From Owenia fusiformis (taxonomy: Eukaryota > Annelida > Polychaeta > Sabellida > Oweniidae): a stretch of 64,000 nt of DNA. A program made the position numbers and the translations under genes. This document shows, piece after piece, positions 12,784 through 32,752 of the stretch; within the stretch, counting starts at the first letter, position 1, and every line of letters starts with the position of its first letter. Below the pieces are notes generated by a model. The model did not search any database. It worked only from the letters and a program-made list of their open reading frames with translations, and had not been told where the DNA came from. Location of the stretch: NCBI GenBank assembly GCA_903813345.2, contig CAIIXF020000568.1, positions 62,001-126,000 of the forward strand, written 5' to 3'.

Positions 12784-13655
12784 GAGAAACTTGGAATATT
12801 TACGACATCCCAGAAAGATAGAATATTCCCGGCAACTGATGTCCAGAAACTTAGAATATTTACGACATCCCAGAAAGATAGAATATTCTCGACAATTGAT
12901 GTCCAGAAAGATAGAATATTCCCGGCAACTGATGTCCAGAAACTTAGAATATTTCGTATAACTGATGTCCAGAGAGATAGAATATTCCCGATAACTGATG
13001 TCCAGAAACTTAGAATATTTCGATAACCGATGTCAGAAAGATAGAATATTCCCGGCAACCGATGTCCAGAAACTTAGAATATTTACGACATCCCAGAAAG
13101 ATAGAATATTCTCGACAATTGATGTCCAGAAACTTAGAAGATATAACTGATGTCAGAAAGATAGAATATTCTCGACCAATGATGTCCAGAAACTTAGAAT
13201 ATTTCGATTACTGATGTCCAGAAACTTAGAATATTTCAACGACTGATGTCTAGAAACTTGGAATATTTCGTGTAACTGATGTCCAGAAACTTAGAAGATA
13301 TAACTGATGTCAGAAAGATAGAATATTCTCGACCAATGATGTCCAGAAACTTAGAATATTTCGATTACTGATGTCCAGAAACTTAGAATATTTCAACGAC
13401 TGATGTCTAGAAACTTGGAATATTTCGTGTAACTGATGTCCAGAAACTTAGAATATTTCAACGACTGATGCCTAGAAACTTGGAATATTTCGTGTAACTG
13501 ATGTCCAGAAACTTAGAAGATATAACTGATGTCAGAAAGATAGAATATTCTCGACCAATGATGTCCAGAAACTTAGAATATTTCGATTACTGATGTCCAG
13601 AAACTTAGAATATTCTCGATAACTGATGTCAGAAAGATAGCAATTTTCGACAACT
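12784..13655 (+). repeat. LTR tandem array, about 28 units of 27-33 bp
   Basis: Units alternate between two types, roughly CAGAAAGATAGAATATTC-CGacaactgatgt and CAGAAACTTAGAATATTTCG-taactgatgtc. Blocks of several units are themselves repeated. About ten units carry the palindrome AGAATATTC, which fits the nGAAnnTTCn arrangement of heat-shock elements. An identical-looking array is in the 3' LTR (17842-18713). The array lies downstream of the TATA box, so it would be transcribed. Confidence 0.9.
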
Positions 13656-13936
13656 GATATAGAGAAGAATAGACACTCTTTAATATAAACTTTGATATTT
13701 CACATAAACAAAGGACTTTCAAGTAGCCTCTCTACAACTTAATTTTACATCGATTTATTCTGTATACATTTTTGGGCTGAATAAGCAACAATATATGTGT
13801 GTTTATTTTATATTCGATGTTGTGACGCTATATCTTCACGTGCATTTAATGTGCACCAAGTATCCCTCGAAGTGACCTAGCCTAATAAAATAAATAACAA
13901 CCATCCACACTACCCAAATTAGGCTAGTTGTTACAT

Positions 13937-17193: not shown

Positions 17194-18993
17194 TGTAACA
17201 AATTTTTAATTTTTCAATTTTTTATTTTTGGAGTCCAGTACCATTTTCTAGCAGTTCAGACAGTTTTGACAGTAGGAAACTGTTTCCCAGTCAAGCTTGA
17301 TAGGTGTTATACTTACATTAATGTGTGGAACACTTTAGATGTACAGGGAGTCGTTTTAACTGCTATTTTCTGTGAGATTTATTTTTGTTTTTATCTGTAC
17401 ATTTTTCTCACTTCCTGCTGACCTACATTCACTTACTCGTTTTTCCTTGCAATTTCACCATAATTAGAGCCAATGATGATTGGTTTTTGTTATATTTATC
17501 TAGTTTATATCTTAATCTAGCTAATACATTACAAGATATGTGTTCGTTTTGTGTTAAACAGCAGAAATCGTGATTGCTAGGCAAAGTCATTTATTTTGCA
17601 AAAGTTATTTCCTCATTGCACCATGGTTGTTTATTTTGCACTAGTGATATCCTGCCTGGGATTCTAGTGGACTGACTGGGTATTGCATCAGCCCATTAAT
17701 CACTTGTTAGGTTCGTGTGCAAAACCTGTCTGGGGTATAAAAGCAGAGCACTGATCGCTCCTAGCAGACACGTACACCACTTTTGAAGAGGAAGGAGCTC
17801 CTATGTCAGTGTCTCATCTACAGACGAGGGACTAAGAGGCTGAGAAACTTGGAATATTTACGACATCCCAGAAAGATAGAATATTCCCGGCAACTGATGT
17901 CCAGAAACTTAGAATATTTACGACATCCCAGAAAGATAGAATATTCTCGACAATTGATGTCCAGAAAGATAGAATATTCCCGGCAACTGATGTCCAGAAA
18001 CTTAGAATATTTCGTATAACTGATGTCCAGAGAGATAGAATATTCCCGATAACTGATGTCCAGAAACTTAGAATATTTCGATAACCGATGTCAGAAAGAT
18101 AGAATATTCCCGGCAACCGATGTCCAGAAACTTAGAATATTTACGACATCCCAGAAAGATAGAATATTCTCGACAATTGATGTCCAGAAACTTAGAAGAT
18201 ATAACTGATGTCAGAAAGATAGAATATTCTCGACCAATGATGTCCAGAAACTTAGAATATTTCGATTACTGATGTCCAGAAACTTAGAATATTTCAACGA
18301 CTGATGTCTAGAAACTTGGAATATTTCGTGTAACTGATGTCCAGAAACTTAGAAGATATAACTGATGTCAGAAAGATAGAATATTCTCGACCAATGATGT
18401 CCAGAAACTTAGAATATTTCGATTACTGATGTCCAGAAACTTAGAATATTTCAACGACTGATGTCTAGAAACTTGGAATATTTCGTGTAACTGATGTCCA
18501 GAAACTTAGAATATTTCAACGACTGATGCCTAGAAACTTGGAATATTTCGTGTAACTGATGTCCAGAAACTTAGAAGATATAACTGATGTCAGAAAGATA
18601 GAATATTCTCGACCAATGATGTCCAGAAACTTAGAATATTTCGATTACTGATGTCCAGAAACTTAGAATATTCTCGATAACTGATGTCAGAAAGATAGCA
18701 ATTTTCGACAACTGATATAGAGAAGAATAGACACTCTTTAATATAAACTTTGATATTTCACATAAACAAAGGACTTTCAAGTAGCCTCTCTACAACTTAA
18801 TTTTACATCGATTTATTCTGTATACATTTTTGGGCTGAATAAGCAACAATATATGTGTGTTTATTTTATATTCGATGTTGTGACGCTATATCTTCACGTG
18901 CATTTAATGTGCACCAAGTATCCCTCGAAGTGACCTAGCCTAATAAAATAAATAACAACCATCCACACTACCCAAATTAGGCTAGTTGTTACA
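17194..18993 (+). repeat. 3' LTR
   Basis: 1800 bp, the same length as the 5' LTR and with the same TATA box, tandem array and terminal TGTAAC/GTTACA. I found no differences in the stretches compared. Confidence 0.9.
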
Positions 18994-25433: not shown

Positions 25434-25700
25434 TTAATTGAATTTGTATAATGTCTATTTTATTGAAGTAATGCTTCCTCTAATTGATAATTTTGTGCAA
25501 AAAATTTCACTGCAATTACCACACGACAGAACATTATGATAACAGACTGAGTACTACATGTAACTCAGTCTGTTGGATACATACTAGGTCACAGGGGCAG
25601 AGCTACTAAATTGTAATATAGTATTGTGAAACTTTTAAACAAGCGTTAAGATGTAATTTACTGAATGTTTTTTCACTTTCAGGTTGTGGCACAATCAAAA

Positions 25701-28700
25701 ATGGCGCCATCTTCTGTCATCCTTGATGATACTCTGACTAATGAGGTTTCCCAGGCCATTTTCACAATATGTAAGAGACGGCTTGAGAATGTCAGCGATA
25801 CAATGGAAATAGATGGCATTATCTACATCTCCCAGAGCACCAAGGAGAATTATGTCATTCAACTTCATAGTAAAGTGCAGCAAACAACGTCACCAAAAAC
25901 GCCAGAGAAGAAACCTAAAAACAAAAATCCGAACGAGATTACTGGGTCTGAACTTGAACATGAAATAGACATTAATGACCCAAAGGAAGATATTTCAGTC
26001 GGAAAGAAAAGGAAACCAAAGCGATCACTCGTGAAGATACATCAAAAACATGATGACAATTTTGAACCACCACAAGTGATAAAGCGCCATCTTGAGGAAG
26101 AATCTGGAATCAGGCGTTCAAGTAGAAAGAGATTTAAACCAGGAAAATTCAAAAATGTCACTGGTAAGTGATGTACATTAAGATATGAATTTGTGTATAA
26201 CATTGTCTGATAGTAATAGGTAGTCTTTTGTCGGATTTGTCATTCACTTTATAATCAAACATTAGTTTAATCGATAAAATGTGTTGGCTTGTATTTCTAA
26301 TGTTTCCCATTTGCTTTTTGTATCATGAAAATAAAATATTTGTGTTAAACCCTTAATTATAACATAAACAAGTATTATCACATTATTATTGAATAATATT
26401 TGTTATCACCTTTAGGGAATGTAGATGACCTTATACTGAGAGTTGAGACTGGAGAGGAGTGGGATGAAACCCATAATTCTCCACAAGAGATGAGAGAGGA
26501 AGGTGAGACCCACAATTCCCCACAAGAAGCAATGGAGGAAGGTGAGACCCATAATCAAAAGGTTGGGGCAGGAGAAGAAGGAAATGAGACCCACAATCCT
26601 CAGGCTGTGAAGGGAGATGATACCCACAATGAAGGTAGACAAGGTGGTATTGAATGGACTGAAAAAGGTACATCTAAAACTATGGTAACTATGTATGTAA
26701 CATATATTTGTTTTTCAGGTCCTCACAATTCAATTTAATTTAATTCAATTTATTTCAATTTTTCAGATAATACATGGGCATAGCCAGGGGGGGGGGAGAG
26801 TGATGGGTGCAATTCCCACCCCACCTAAAAAAAAGCTAAAAACAATTGTGTAAAATATGTTGAAAAAATTAACAAATTTTAGTTTGAAATGTTTAAAATG
26901 CACATACAAATAAAGTGATAAAACTAATACATGTTGAATTTATAGATGTCACTTGTAGTAAGTAAATACTGCACTTGTCGGCCATCTATATTGGTCAGCA
27001 GGATATTGAGTTCACAGAAATAAACTTTGGATTTTTAATGAAGTCTGATGATATTTCTTAATATGATTATTACTAAATAATTCATTCAACTCACTGGCAT
27101 TGGAATATATAAGTAATAATAAATAACATAATCTTCCATTTTTAACTGAACAAAATGGGATTTTAACCCTTTCACGACGATAGGCTCCATATGGAGCCCT
27201 ATTATGTAATACCTTTCAGGACGAAGGCTCCTTTTGGCACCATTATTTTTATTCATATACATCAATGAAATGACAATATCTCCAGTTCTATTCAGTATTT
27301 TTACATCAATTCTTGACAAGTTGTTCAAATTTGATAATCCTTACTACAAAATTTTATTTTAGTGATAAAATTCAAGGTATAGGTCCTGGGGCATAGGTTA
27401 TTTGCAGTTTTCCCCTAAAAACCGTTCTTACTTATCCGTCACCAGGGCCAACATTTTTCTTTTATATTCACGTCGGGAAAGGGTTAATACTGTCAACATA
27501 CTCATTAACATTTTAGAGAGGCTTAAGAAAATAAGAACAAAAACAGTATGAGAAGTCCAGAGATCTGTGTTTGTTCATTTTTGATTGAAAAGATGGCGTA
27601 CTTGGTTGTTGGGTTGTCACATAGAACAAAAAATGAATGACTATGTGATATGAACATCGTTGCCATCTTTCATTTAATATTGCAAAAAACTTGACTTAAA
27701 ATTTTTACAGATCAAACATTTGAAAAAGTGCTATATTGTCGTCGTCTTGTGCTGTTGGGCGGGCGTTTGGGCGTGCGGGTGTGCGGGCGTGCGGGCGGGC
27801 GGGACATAAACTAAATCTTGTCATCAAATTTCCAGGATAACTGCTTACCTGTTCAACTTGAAATTTTAACAGATGCAAGAGCAGACTAGTACCAAGATCT
27901 GATTAGGTTAAGGGCATGCTGGGTAAACTATGTGGCGGCCATTTTGAATTTTTCAACAAATCTTGTCATCAAAATTCCAGGAAAACCACTTATCCGTTCA
28001 ACTTGAAATTTTTACAGATGCAAGAGCAGACTATTGCCAAGATCTGATTAGGTTTTGGGTATGCTGGCTGAATTACATGGTGGCCATTTTGAATTTTTTA
28101 ATTTGGCGGCCATTTTGAATTTTTCAACTTGCTCCAAATTGACCAAATTTTTTTTTTAAAAACATCTACAAGTTCTCAGAAGTTCAAATCTGACCTTAGA
28201 TTTCAGATTTGACCTTTCGTTGACCTTCAGTGGCCTTGAAAAGGTAAAAAATTTGATTTTCTAAATTGATATTTTGGATTTAAATTTAGGTCAGCTAATT
28301 ACAAAAGACCTACTGAGGTCTGAAAAAGTGAAATTTTCAAGGTCGAAGGTCATCAAATTAGGTCACAAACAATGTTATCTAAATTTTCCCAAAGTTCAAG
28401 ACTACAAATAAATTCTTGTCATCAAAATTGCAGGAAAACCGCTAACCTTGTCAACTTGAAATGTTTACAGATGGAAGAGCAGACTAGTGCCACGGTCTGA
28501 TTAGGTTTTGGCCATGCTGGGTAAATTGCATGGTGGCCAGTTTGCTCTTCAAAGTGCGATATTTATCACTGTGTGTCTTGTTGATAATTTATTGTAAGAT
28601 CAAATTTGTACTAAAATCAATCCATTGGAAATATAAGGGGGTGAAAAGTAAGTCTTCATTTTGCGAAAGATACTGAAAAGATATGTTCATGTATTGAATC

Positions 28701-31700
28701 ACTTAAACATAGCCAACACATATATTTCTATAAATGTTAAGTTCTTTTTATTAAGTCTATTATCTTCTTATACCACTACAATAAATCATTGAATATTTTA
28801 TTTTTCTTCAGAAGAAATAGAGAGTGGGAAAGAAGAGAACCACAAGAAAGAACATGATCAGCTTAATGAACAAAGTGTTAAAGATAGTGTTGGAAATGAA
28901 GAGCAGATTAACGCTGTGGAGGAACCAGCTCAGGAAGACACTGGTAACCAAGAGGAAGATAATACAGATACTGTTAAAGATGGTGAGGCAAATGAGCATG
29001 ACTATGTAAAAGATAAAGGTGATGACCAATCCGAATCAGTTGATGTAAAAAATGCATTTAAAGATCCAGATGCTTTGAAAGCTGCCATTGAAATATTTAA
29101 CATGACATCTAAACCAGAGAAAAAATCATGTAAACTTCCCAATGGTAAATTCATGTGTGATCACCCGACATGTGGAAAAACATACATAGACTTTGGGAGC
29201 ATGTGTGTCCACAGAACCATCCATACTGATCATCGCTATGAATGTGAGCTTTGCCTAAAAAAGTACACCCGTAAGGATAGCCTAATGAAACATGTTTGTG
29301 CGAAAGTAAAAGTGAAAAATATGGAACAGAAGCATGTATGCGCAGTATGTGAGGAGAACTTCTTAAACTTGAAATATTTGGAGATTCATATGAAGACCGA
29401 GCACCCGACAAAACTTCTGTTCAGGTGTAAGATTTGCCCGAATTCAGTTTTCCGTACCCAGTACAAGCTGAGTCAACATGATTTGATTGTACACGGGGAA
29501 AAGAGTTTTATATGCCCAGAGTGTGGGGCTTCATTCACCAACAAAGTGAAGCTGAGATATCACGAAAACTCTCATAAGCAGAAGAAACTCAAATCTCAAA
29601 ATGAGACAGATCTAGAAGTTCTGAAAAAAGCATTTCACATTTGCAACGTCTGCTCTAAGAAATATGAATCATATGGTGGACTTCAAAAACATATGAGAAT
29701 ACATACTGGGAAATTATTCATGTGTGAGCTTTGCCCGAAGAGTTACATTTCCCAAGATTCCTTGAGCCAGCATATATATAACTCTCATGAGAAGCCCCAA
29801 ACTAAGCCGCAGCCTTTAAACAAGGCCAATGGTCCACCCTTCATCTGCCCAGAGCCTGACTGTGCGATGTCATTCCAACTGATGTATAAATTTAGGCGAC
29901 ACTATCGGTGGCACAGTGGTGATCTCTGGACCTGTACATATTGTGGTGAGTCATAACTTCGCTTGTTCCCTAATTCTTCAATTCAATTTTTAGTTCTAAA
30001 CTCCCAAATAGAAACTTAGAAGTCTTGGAATTTGAAATTTTATGTAACGTTACAAGATGTTAGTTTGAGAAATGAATAAAGAAGGCAAATCATTTGAGAA
30101 ATATGATGATGCTTATGTTTCTTGCCTAATAACCTTTTGCCTGTGAAACACATATTTTCACAAATACACAAAAAGCACTTTTACAGATGCCTCAACTTAG
30201 ATCTTTTGTCTGTTCATCAGTACACATTTGTGATTCCAATATGATACGTGACGTAACAATAACTTAAACTAGAACAATTGATTTACTGGTCTATATTGGA
30301 GTATGTATGACCGCTAAAATTCATAAATGCAAAAAGTTGTGTTACTTGTCTATATGTCTGTTTATCATATTAGAATCATAACAAAGACCGAGATTTTATG
30401 ATTTATGTCCAATATATGACCTCAAATTTTATGCTGGCCATTGCCGAAGAACAGAATAAAATTTTCAGTCATATATTACACCATAAATCATAAAACTTTG
30501 GTCTTTATTCCTTAATTCTAATCTTGGTCTTTATTCCTTAATTCTAATCTCGGTCTTTATTCCTTAATTCTAATCTCGGTCTTTATTCCTTAATTCTCAT
30601 CTCTGTCTTTATTCCTTAATTCTAATCTCGGTCTTTATTCCTTAATTCTAATCTCGGTCTTTATTCCTTAATTCTAATCTCGGTCTTTATTCCAATTAAT
30701 TCTAATCTCGGTCTTTATTCCTTAATTCTAATCTCGGTTTTTATTCCTTATTTCTAATCTCGGTCTTTATTCCTTAATTCTAATCTCGGTCTTTATTCCT
30801 TAATTCTAATCTCGGTCTTTATTCCTTAATTTTAATCTCGGTCTTTATTCCTTAATTCTAATCTTTGTCTTTATTCCTTAATTCTAATCTCGGTCTTTAT
30901 TCCTTTATTCTAATCTCGGTCTTTATTCCTTAATTCTAATCTCGGTCTTTATTCCTTAATTCTAATCTCGGTCTTTATTCCTTAATTCTAATCTCGGTCT
31001 TTATTCCTTAATTCTAATCTCGGTTTTTATTCCTTAATTCTAATCTCGGTCTTTATTCTTAAATTCTAATCTCGGTTTTTGTAGATAAAGCATTTGATGA
31101 GAAACACCGCATGGATCAGCATATGGAGGCTGTTCACAGTAATGTGCTCAAGTATAAATGCAGCGATTGTGCACGTGGGTTCACTACAAAGTAAGTATTG
31201 AGTTTACTTATTGTTCATTACAAAGTACTTCAAGTTTAATTTCTTCACTCCAAAGTAAGTACTGAGTTTCATCAATCCATTCAGCGCATGGATCAGCATA
31301 TGGAGGCTGTTCACAGTAATGTGCTCAAGTATAAATGCAGCGATTGTGCACGTGGGTTCACTACAAAGTAAGTATTGAGTTTAATTATTGTTCATTACAA
31401 AGTACTTCAAGTTTAATTTCTTCACTCCAAAGTAAGTACTGAGTTTCATCAATCCATTCAGTACAAAGTAAGAGTTTAATCATTCATTTAGTACAAAGTA
31501 AGAATTTAATCATTCATTTAGTACAAAGTAAGAGTTTAATCATTCATTCAGTACAAAGTAAGAATTTAATCATTCATTCAGTACAAAATAAGAATTTAAT
31601 CATTCATTCAGTACAAAGTAAGTACTGAGTTTAATCATCCATTCAGTACAACTTAAGAGTTTAATCATTCATTCAGTACAAAGTAAGTACTGAGTTTAAT

Positions 31701-32752
31701 CATCCATTCAGTACAACGTAAGAGTTTAATCATTCATTCAGTACAAAGTAAGTACTGTGTTTAATCATTCATTCGCTACAAAGTATACGTGTAATTCATG
31801 TCAAGTGGTATTTCTGGACCCCTCTAAGAATTTTGATACCAGTTTCTATAACGTTTGTTTATTTTTAATAAAAAACATTACAAATTGAAGAATTGTGTTA
31901 TTGATATTATGAGACAAATATGATTGTATGATTGATACAAGATGTAATTGTGCAAAATGTGACCTTGACACCACGCTGAATGATGAGTAATTAACGTTTT
32001 TGTGGTTCCTTTTTTGGCTCACCCTGTATAATTAATGTTCCAGGAGTGCCAGAGCAAAACATTATAAGCAGACCCATGGGACAGGGGCTCTAAAACAGCA
32101 AGCCAACACGACCAATCATGATAGAATAATGCTTGAAGGAGCTTTGGATGGCATTAGCAAATCAGTGGAGCTACTAGATAAGGACCCTGGCACTAAAATG
32201 ATCCTCATTGAGACAACTGATGGTGAATATATATCAATCCCCATGATTCAACCAGATGCTGATAATAATCAAATAGATCCTGCGGTTTATACCCATGGAT
32301 CGGATATCATAGCGCAAAATGCTGAAATTGCAACTACAGCTGGGTCGGAGATATCTAATACAGATAGCCCAGGAATTCAGAGCCATGAATCTGAGAATAT
32401 TACACATGGACTGCAAATTTTGACTCATGGATCCGAAATAGCCAGTCAAGTGTCGGGAATGATATCAGATGGGACTGAAGTCATAGCACATCCAGAGGAA
32501 ATCACATGCATTGCACAAGACACTGAAATGATAACTGAGAATTCAGAAGTTGTCCCCGAAGGATCGCAAATAATTATCAATGTTGAGGACTCGGAGCAGG
32601 TTTACGATTCCCAGAATGCAATTAATTATAATAATGTGAATTCGCAGGTTGCAGAGGATGGGGAATTTAAAATGCAGACAATGTTAATTTTGAAAGAAAA
32701 TGAAACAGAACATTGTGTACAAGTTGAAGTCGATCCCCAGAATTATTCTTGA
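25701..32752 (+). CDS. Gene B: multi-finger C2H2 zinc-finger protein, 5 exons
   Basis: Coding exons: 25701-26163, 26416-26667, 28812-29945, 31085-31190 and 32044-32752. They total 2664 nt, giving 887 aa plus stop. Donors are CTG|GTAAGT, AAG|GTACAT, GTG|GTGAGT and AAA|GTAAGT; introns 1-3 are phase 1 and intron 4 is phase 2. Every join keeps frame, and fingers 9 and 10 are completed only across joins 3-4 and 4-5, which supports the model. An acceptor TTTCACTTTCAG lies 19 bases before the ATG, so a 5' UTR exon is expected. The N-terminus has the gene A block (EIDGIIYIS). Exon 2 encodes five ETHN/DTHN repeats in an acidic stretch. Exon 3 encodes eight fingers (the second is imperfect) and half of the ninth; the tenth is CSDCARGFTTK...HYKQTH. 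The tail (about 180 aa) is acidic, Ser/Glu/Ile-rich with loose HGSEI-type repeats, perhaps an activation region. Likely a nuclear DNA-binding regulator (inference); no orthologue named. Confidence 0.9.
26164..26415. other. Gene B intron 1
   Basis: A short AT-rich intron, GTAAGT at the start and CACCTTTAG at the end. Nothing else is seen in it. Confidence 0.7.
27163..27487 (+). mobile_element. piggyBac-like MITE, complete copy C, in gene B intron 2
   Basis: A 325-bp unit that starts and ends with TTAA and has inverted ends CCCTTTCACGACG / CCCTTTCCCGACGTG. It is the best-preserved of three copies in this window (others at 1474-1992 and 21361-21641) and provides the empty sites for the insertions in those copies. 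Near its left end is a palindrome around GGCTCCATATGGAGCC. Non-coding. Confidence 0.85.
27719..28567 (+). repeat. Interspersed repeat with GC-rich microsatellite, gene B intron 2
   Basis: It begins with a GGGCGTGCGGGC-type tract (27757-27804). Three diverged units of about 130-200 bp follow, each with CTTGTCATCAAA(A/T)TTCCAGG, CAACTTGAAATTTTTACAGATG and TGCTGGGTAAATT plus a GGCGGCCATTTTGAATTTTT block. Non-coding. It resembles the array at 22690-23720 only in the GGCCATTTTG motif. Confidence 0.75.
30494..31081 (+). repeat. Minisatellite at the 3' end of gene B intron 3, about 22 units of 26 bp
   Basis: The unit is TTCCTTAATTCTAATCTCGG plus TCTTTA. Each unit holds a branch-point-like TTCTAAT followed by a pyrimidine-rich stretch. 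The last copy is altered to read CTCGGTTTTTGTAG and supplies the acceptor of exon 4 at 31084. Most units are near identical, so expansion is recent. Confidence 0.95.
31108..31461 (+). repeat. 177-bp tandem duplication of the exon 4 end and its donor
   Basis: 31108-31284 and 31285-31461 are nearly identical (one difference seen). The unit contains the last 83 bases of exon 4, the donor AAA|GTAAGT and the start of intron 4. The second copy begins right after an AG (CCATTCAG|CGCATGG), so it could be read as an exon, but its 83 bases would shift the frame at either join. Confidence 0.9.
31462..31779 (+). repeat. Donor-derived minisatellite in gene B intron 4, ten units
   Basis: Units of 30-35 bp read TACAAAGTAAGAGTTTAATC plus ATTCATTCAG. 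Each is bounded by an acceptor-like TTCAG and includes a donor-like CAAA|GTAAG; eight of ten keep GTAAG. The sequence is plainly related to the exon 4 donor region just upstream. Confidence 0.95.
31780..32043. other. Rest of gene B intron 4
   Basis: AT-rich intron sequence ending in AATGTTCCAG. No other feature is recognised. Confidence 0.6.

Follow-up and report, generated by a model that had tools for sequence, protein, structure and literature searches.

Exon 4 of a zinc-finger gene in the annelid Owenia fusiformis lies between two arrays of splice-type signals, and these arrays are, in our judgement, probably tolerated by-products of tandem amplification and not a regulatory device, with the true sites most likely still used. 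We analysed a stretch of 64,000 nucleotides (the window; contig CAIIXF020000568.1, positions 62,001 to 126,000), in which a first-pass annotation, made from the letters alone, had described this arrangement. Its anatomy is borne out (Table 1).

Table 1. Features around exon 4, in positions of the window
Feature	Position	Strand	Basis or remark
Exon 3: zinc fingers 1–8 and start of 9	28793..29945	+	open frame, donor GTGAGT; C2H2 fingers (Pfam)
Dispersed repeat of ~260 bp with internal palindrome	30233..30495	+	diverged copies on C1–C12
Upstream minisatellite, 22 × 26 bp, no internal AG	30501..31074	+	unit counts, TRF
10-nt partial unit with exon 4 acceptor at its end (GTTTTTGTAG)	31075..31084	+	identical in C2 haplotype
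Exon 4 (106 nt): last part of finger 9, first part of finger 10	31085..31190	+	identical in both haplotypes
177-bp duplication	31108–31284 / 31285–31461		176/177 identical
Decoy exon 4b (83 nt) in second 177-bp copy, between TTCAG and GTAAGT	31285..31367	+	window haplotype only
Downstream 'mirage' minisatellite, ten 30–35-bp units and a degenerate end	31462..31785	+	TRF, unit inspection
Exon 5: remainder of finger 10 and C-terminal part, up to the stop codon	32044..32752	+	open frame

The reading frame is continuous through exons 3, 4 and 5 in both haplotypes, and exon 4 completes finger 9 and begins finger 10 just where the first-pass annotation had placed it (the fingers were counted by eye). 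Exon 3 is listed from 28793, where its open frame starts, but its acceptor is probably at 28811. Another open frame (25665–26168), for which a Pfam search returned no family, is taken as an upstream exon. No tRNA gene was found in a search of the whole window.

The upstream array has 22 full units, as had been estimated, and 13 of them equal the consensus; TRF gives 22.3 copies with 95% matches. The branch-point-like TTCTAAT, claimed for every unit, is present in 20 and missing from the other two. Neither the units of the window haplotype nor the consensus unit contain an AG, so the array repeats branch-point and pyrimidine signals, not decoy acceptors; it carries no exon sequence (the longest match to the exon is 4 nt). 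At its 3' end the array does pass into the acceptor, the partial unit terminating in the acceptor AG. Seven of the 78 possible substitutions in the unit would create an AG; 12 substitutions are seen in the 26-base units of the window haplotype and five in those of the second copy of the locus, on C2, where one creates an AG, and these are too few to claim selection against AG. A 29-base pattern of the unit (at most two mismatches) has 31 matches in the 498-Mb genome, all here or at the C2 counterpart, and its reversed control has none. The neighbouring ~260-bp repeat (40 candidate copies scored out of 611, and out of 726) contains in the inverted arm of its palindrome the 13-mer AATCTCGGTCTTT, which is also present in the 26-bp unit; positions 30186–30411 of the window have no counterpart in the C2 haplotype.

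On the other side of exon 4 both the 177-bp duplication and the ten shorter units are present as described, but the figure of about ten decoy donor–acceptor pairs was slightly high: seven of the ten units have the intact layout of a putative mini-exon (AG/TACAAA/GTAAG), one reads TACAAC/GTAAG (with the GT kept) and two have no GT. The donor junction of exon 4 and the downstream unit align as the same sequence. The nonamer of this donor, AAAGTAAGT, recurs six times in the window haplotype and four times in the other; the decoy donors equal the real one in strength, and by splice score the exon 4 donor is itself weaker than that of exon 3.

The C2 copy (17,921,775–17,867,473) is most likely the other haplotype of C483, the window's contig: the two are joined by a collinear match chain with 32.6 kb aligned. 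Unit number, which had been suspected to vary, differs between these chromosomes, with 22 upstream units in the window haplotype versus 10 in C2; the 177-bp duplication is found in the former only, and the downstream array of C2 differs in composition. The last two upstream units and the partial unit, by contrast, are identical in both. The zinc-finger coding sequence is under purifying selection, with 23 synonymous versus nine nonsynonymous codon differences in 655 (pN/pS 0.095).

Transcripts that skip exon 4, take exon 4b in its place, contain both exons or carry an extended exon 4 are each predicted to have a frameshift or an immediate stop, and use of a decoy donor would lead straight into a stop codon (AAG TAA). 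Inclusion of TACAAA would preserve the frame, as had been pointed out (six bases are added), but the spacing between the second Cys and the first His of finger 10 would become X14, against the X12 that is the rule for zinc fingers. Intact mini-exons are only 24 nt apart in three of six gaps in the window haplotype and in four of five gaps in the other, which leaves too little room for an ordinary metazoan intron. These predicted products and short gaps lend no support to the suggestion of the first-pass annotation that the arrays modulate the use of exon 4, and the predicted products, together with the purifying selection on the coding sequence, lead us to read the arrays as tolerated by-products.

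We consider it improbable that the arrays tune the use of exon 4, in such a way that splicing is rendered noisy by the many branch points and matching donors and unit number sets the share of nonproductive, stop-containing mRNA and thus the protein level. Such tuning could draw on decoy donors that share the real nonamer and predict an immediate stop, on unit numbers that differ between haplotypes, and on the reported precedent of TERT VNTR6-1, likewise a polymorphic intronic minisatellite and one linked to splicing. However, arrays of the same kind stand at exons of unrelated genes, which fits a mutational process more readily than control of a single gene, and neither the exon nor its adjacent units differ between the haplotypes, although the remainder does. 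Decidedly less likely is an intermediate of exon or intron gain, in which exon 4b or the TACAAA mini-exon is under recruitment: exon 4b is flanked by an acceptor-like AG and by the sequence of the real donor, tandem genomic duplication is described as a recognized way in which introns are gained (PMC3443670) and mirages have been proposed as another (PMC3087553), but exon 4b breaks the frame whether it replaces or accompanies exon 4, TACAAA would alter the spacing of finger 10, and the 177-bp copy, confined to one haplotype, must be recent because it is nearly identical. There is only a very slight chance that the extra units and the duplication are assembly errors, or that C483 is a diverged paralogue and not a haplotype, for although C483 is a 317-kb contig separate from the chromosome-sized ones and the match chain covers only about half of the window, both copies share the same array build with private differences in each, the matches along the window are consistent in order and orientation, and a third copy of the locus was not found in the genome.

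If the arrays are by-products, the last bases of exon 4 with about 25 first bases of intron 4 would have been copied in tandem, and the downstream array would then have expanded and shrunk. The upstream array would have arisen separately in intron 3, beside the dispersed repeat, and the exon 4 acceptor would now draw its branch point and pyrimidine tract from the truncated last unit of that array. The 177-bp duplication would be a recent gain of one chromosome. The spliceosome most likely stays with the exon-adjacent donor and with the AG that closes the upstream array. The arrays would thus be length-variable, nearly neutral passengers, such as other exon boundaries in this genome carry too, and are probably inconsequential for the zinc-finger gene.

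Comparable boundary arrays occur at exons of unrelated genes. In a sample of 15 donor-motif arrays nine begin at apparent coding exon ends, and seven of these nine repeat 31–43 exon nucleotides up to the final base, followed by GTAAGT or GTGAGT; since, as a rough figure, about half of all occurrences of AGGTAAGT in a genome of this kind could be true donors, nine out of 15 may be no more than expected if arrays were indifferent to exons. Six of 20 acceptor-motif arrays on C1 adjoin apparent exon starts (four of the six repeat exon sequence from +1). None of ten reversed-motif control arrays is at an apparent coding exon, although the control was screened via open frames of at least 45 residues, which is less sensitive and could miss short exons. 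Four of the nine donor exons (L033, L034, L038 and L039) and one of the six acceptor exons (L060) were read by eye; we take L039, which has no PDB match, to be DIP2 and L060 to be an ankyrin, and neither piece has a Pfam match. An exon of UPRT has arrays on both its donor and acceptor sides, with 17 GTAAGT including the true donor, and the arrays of L031, L037 and L041 contain CAG/GTAAGT.

Arrays scattered away from splice sites had been named in advance as evidence against a splicing role, and they are seen in part: the 26-bp unit is confined to this locus and the corresponding place on C2, but the TACAAAGTAAG array on C6 lies where no exon is evident by eye. The donor motif has fewer raw matches than the reversed motif (213 versus 357), which could reflect selection against such arrays, i.e. 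a cost. We dropped these counts as evidence that arrays ignore splice sites: matches are not arrays, large arrays dominate the numbers, and TGAATGGA, the reversed motif, readily occurs in tetranucleotide repeats. The counts for TTTCAGG (880 versus 164) are inflated by large arrays (42 among the matches listed come from one ankyrin-like array), and neither pair of counts settles whether arrays prefer splice sites.

The closest known systems are the mirages of amphioxus, described for Adh3, TnC, the globin genes BflGb6 and BflGb9, and PGBD5, with units of 10–160 bp, six versus three units in BflGb6 haplotypes and reported somatic length instability for Adh3; the papers suggest that splicing is left undisturbed (PMC3087553, PMC3902484). 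Like them, the downstream array consists of tandem units that span the exon–intron boundary and repeat its splice signal (TACAAA tail, GTAAG and intron), the authentic boundary is kept in an intact gene, and the length differs between haplotypes (given that C483 is a haplotype of C2); mirages lie on the donor or the acceptor side, and both sides are also found in this genome. In contrast, the host is an annelid (a lancelet is the host in published cases, not a structural criterion), the downstream unit includes no more than ~7 bases of the exon, the upstream array lies wholly within the intron and has no boundary-spanning units, and one exon combines arrays with a 177-bp duplication. A literature search for 'mirages' outside lancelets found none, yet boundary repeats as such are already known there: in human duplicated genes, variable tandem repeats (~30-bp units) are described as reaching exon–intron boundaries, where they can create novel introns (PMC2812944). 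Those repeats are likewise minisatellite-type and number-variable, but mostly exonic, within segmental duplications, and lengthen exons or form introns, whereas here a splice-site array stands beside an intact exon. Introns from tandem duplication (PMC3443670) share the duplicated AG and GT signals, while the decoy products here are predicted to be off-frame. Human UBC also has tandem potential splice sites, reported to be used stochastically (PMC10809524), but these are AGGT at the borders of coding repeats; the present repeats are noncoding and their units have no AGGT core, AG and GT being 6 nt apart. By analogy with UBC and the human boundary repeats, some use of the decoys is possible.

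We suggest only tentatively that splice-boundary minisatellites are genome-wide and ongoing in this annelid and arise more often at exon edges than elsewhere, by a process shared independently with lancelets. If so, the multiplied splice sites would be material from which new introns and exons could form, and in perhaps hundreds of genes the spliceosome would have to disregard tandem copies of a true site. Were the arrays as common as our sample suggests, they would offer many natural tests of how a true site is chosen among near-identical copies (e.g. the 16 further GTAAGT after the donor of the UPRT exon) and would make exon boundaries vary from one chromosome to the other; mirages would widen from a lancelet oddity to a broader animal phenomenon, and the tandem-duplication model of intron gain would have many starting points.

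A COX1 search for a mitochondrial contig gave no match, and transcriptomic profiles of Owenia fusiformis across its life cycle are described in PMC9977687. A lancelet origin, suspected at first because lancelets have mirages, was rejected on the fluorescent-protein and linker searches that follow. A search of the genome for a lancelet-type fluorescent protein gave a best match of E 0.98, and the GFP Pfam model, run without a positive control, gave no match. The erythrocruorin linker model PF16915, presumably specific to annelids, scored above its cut-off at three places on C6 in a profile search.

We find that exons 3, 4 and 5 join into a single open frame on the + strand of the window (C483:62001–126000; the genome holds 498,259,871 bases in 525 contigs). 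The frame encodes a C2H2 protein with ten fingers by visual count (Pfam zf-C2H2, E 9.5e-26), and exon 4, as proposed in the first-pass annotation, is confirmed, with the frame continuous from exon 3 into exon 5. Directly 5' of the exon 5 acceptor lies GGCTCACCCTGTATA (32010–32043), which may resemble a transposon terminal repeat.

Features of the zinc-finger locus (window positions) and arrays adjoining apparent exons elsewhere in the genome
Feature	Position	Strand	Remarks
Exon 3	end at 29945	+	open frame
Dispersed ~260-bp repeat	30233–30495		internal palindrome; copies on large contigs C1–C12
Upstream array	from 30501	+	22 x 26 bp plus 10-nt partial unit ending in acceptor; 3' end of intron 3
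Exon 4	31085–31190	+	open frame
177-bp duplication	31108–31284 / 31285–31461		176/177 identical
Decoy exon 4b	31285–31367	+	inside second copy of duplication
Downstream array	after 177-bp duplication	+	ten units, 30–35 bp
Exon 5	start at 32044	+	open frame
L031, KIAA0895-like			donor array at exon end; PDB E 6.2e-5
L035, NCS-1			donor array at exon end; 2e-10
L037, kringle			donor array at exon end; 5.6e-5, below Pfam cut-off
L040, Rab27			donor array at exon end; 1.5e-8
L041, Pfam PF15874			donor array at exon end; 3.2e-8
L033, L034, L038, L039			donor arrays at apparent exon ends; by eye only
L043, ligand-gated channel			acceptor array at exon start; Pfam 1.1e-14
L048, GABA-B receptor			acceptor array at exon start; PDB 2.9e-8
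L055, nSTAND3			acceptor array at exon start; Pfam 5.4e-5, below cut-off
L059, UPRTase			acceptor array at exon start; Pfam 5.7e-7
L060, ankyrin-like			acceptor array at exon start; by eye
L061, coatomer beta'			acceptor array at exon start; PDB 5.4e-9
L062, UPRT exon	C1:58370900–58373300	reverse	both arrays

The first-pass annotation had described about 22 TTCTAAT-bearing units before exon 4, the last becoming the real acceptor: 22 were found, 20 of them with the motif, and the partial unit carries the acceptor at its end. The window copy of this array contains no AG; its units are therefore repeated branch-point and pyrimidine signals all directed to one AG, rather than decoy acceptors. The array starts at the end of the dispersed repeat (copies scored: 40 out of 726 candidates for its left part, 40 out of 611 for its right part), whose inverted arm has AATCTCGGTCTTT in common with the 26-bp unit (by inspection). 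The unit gave 31 genome matches (reversed control: 0). The upstream array is an intronic minisatellite extending as far as the acceptor, and not a mirage (tandem copies of an exon–intron boundary) in the structural sense.

The 177-bp duplication 3' of exon 4, noted earlier, is indeed present; its junction shows no clear microhomology, and it copies the 3'-terminal 83 nt of exon 4 along with the donor, creating exon 4b. About ten decoy donor/acceptor pairs had been proposed beyond it: the ten units exist, but AG/TACAAA/GTAAG is intact in only seven. Further copies of the true donor's nonamer, AAAGTAAGT, stand at 31255, 31368, 31432, 31618, 31683 and 31748; four copies of AAAGTAAGA and one of AACGTAAGA have donor scores below it (consensus values plus computed U1 pairing energy). 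A unit aligns with the genuine exon 4/intron 4 junction, and the downstream array is structurally a mirage. As to whether such arrays also lie scattered away from splice sites, the 26-bp unit is found at this locus only, but three copies of TACAAAGTAAG gave 17 genome matches (reversed control: 6): six belong to this locus and the remaining 11 to a distinct 41-bp array on C6, alongside which no exon was seen by eye within 1.8 kb.

The consequences of decoy use were predicted from the sequence: skipping exon 4, swapping it for 4b or adding 4b would shift the frame and give an early stop, and extension to a later donor would create an instant stop (AAG TAA). Insertion of the TACAAA mini-exon would be frame-neutral, as the annotation held, with finger 10 becoming CSDC-X14-H instead of X12. 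Intact mini-exons are spaced by 24 nt at three of six gaps in the window and four of five on C2. In seven of eight further donor arrays elsewhere in the genome, read-through from the exon into the array hits a stop in 80 codons or fewer (scored regardless of the next donor's position, leaving out L034 and with the UPRT exon outside the eight); for the UPRT exon, in phase 1, the stop comes after 4 codons.

A single other copy of the locus was found, at C2:17900153–17900899 (minus strand). The best match chain places window 207–63805 along C2 17,921,775 to 17,867,473 in 31 pieces (32.6 kb aligned, mean identity 92%; the 200 kb of C2 used include 9,000 N), interrupted by satellites and by sizeable indels; from this collinearity, C483 is most likely the other haplotype of C2. 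The suspected variation in unit number is borne out, with 22 upstream units in the window and 10 on C2, where an AG has arisen in one unit and the AG-free run ahead of the acceptor is 241 nt (614 nt in the window). C2 lacks the 177-bp duplication and the dispersed repeat's left part, and its downstream array has six intact AG/TACAAA/GTAAG units. The two units and partial unit next to the acceptor are the same in both haplotypes, as is exon 4. Across the 655 codons compared, about the first six of which precede the probable acceptor of exon 3, the haplotypes differ by 23 synonymous and nine nonsynonymous codon changes (uncorrected pN/pS 0.095); the gene is constrained, its arrays variable. Elsewhere in the window, one 33-bp minisatellite occurs at 12785–13658 and 17843–18716 (identical TRF statistics, 5058 bp apart), which suggests that ~5 kb was recently duplicated in tandem; long arrays of a 186-bp satellite, running in either orientation, occupy much of the right half (34642–63999) and align poorly between haplotypes.

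Boundary arrays are not peculiar to this gene. Triple AGGTAAGT at 10–40 bp spacing gave 213 genome matches (357 for the reversed motif). Among the matches listed were 17 donor-motif clusters on C1–C7, of which 15 were examined (L027–L041), leaving out C6:14336195 and 14337766, which repeat the L034 unit. An apparent coding exon ends where the array starts in nine out of 15; no exon was seen in the other six within the stretch examined. In seven of the nine, the unit includes 31–43 exon nt to base -1, then GTAAGT or GTGAGT, a strict pattern that L031 and L034 do not match. One 37-bp AGGTAAGT unit occurs at three C6 sites within 35 kb (14303382, 14336195, 14337766), possibly reflecting duplication of a gene along with its array.

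Of the 12 clusters listed for the reversed motif TGAATGGA, ten were examined on both sides, and an exon adjoining the array was recognised in none. A BEACH exon (Pfam 5.8e-7) lies ~135 nt past one control array, and a frame weakly resembling Use1 (0.01, below cut-off) >100 nt from another; a third flank gave only matches of 0.013–0.041, all below cut-off. The contrast with the donor and acceptor sets is indicative and yields no rate, judging being unblinded and the eight control frames compared with Pfam having at least 45 residues, as against some donor exons recognised from 22–44 codons (L034, L037, L040, L041).

On the acceptor side, TTTCAGG in triplicate gave 880 genome matches (164 reversed). 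Among the matches listed, 20 clusters on C1 were taken (L042–L061), and an apparent exon start adjoins the array in six. The exon is repeated from +1 in L043, L048, L059 and L060 (25–46 aligned nt, 76–100% identity) and matches less well in L055 and L061. The other 14 have no exon assignment; open frames from L044, L051, L053 and L058 lack a Pfam match, and L044 and L056 share one repeat unit. C1:61142782–61145232 holds 42 of the matches listed, in 47-bp units of acceptor plus ankyrin-like exon start. The UPRT exon is laid out like exon 4, with arrays on either side: three copies at the acceptor, the last being the true one, and 17 GTAAGT downstream, true donor included.

Lancelet mirages are haplotype-variable tandem repeats over exon–intron boundaries, and RT-PCR suggests normal splicing (PMC3087553, PMC3902484). 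The downstream array resembles them in spanning such a boundary and varying between haplotypes; the upstream array falls outside their structural definition. Tandem repeats at exon–intron boundaries are already published for human duplicated genes (PMC2812944). No report of mirages under that name outside lancelets was found, subscription literature lying mostly beyond the search's reach; as far as these searches show, the downstream array extends mirages to a new phylum. Most probably the arrays arose by tandem amplification and are tolerated. Their worth is their number, and this genome may be a natural laboratory for splice-site choice. In a profile search, the erythrocruorin linker PF16915, presumably annelid-specific, scored above cut-off at three clustered places on C6.
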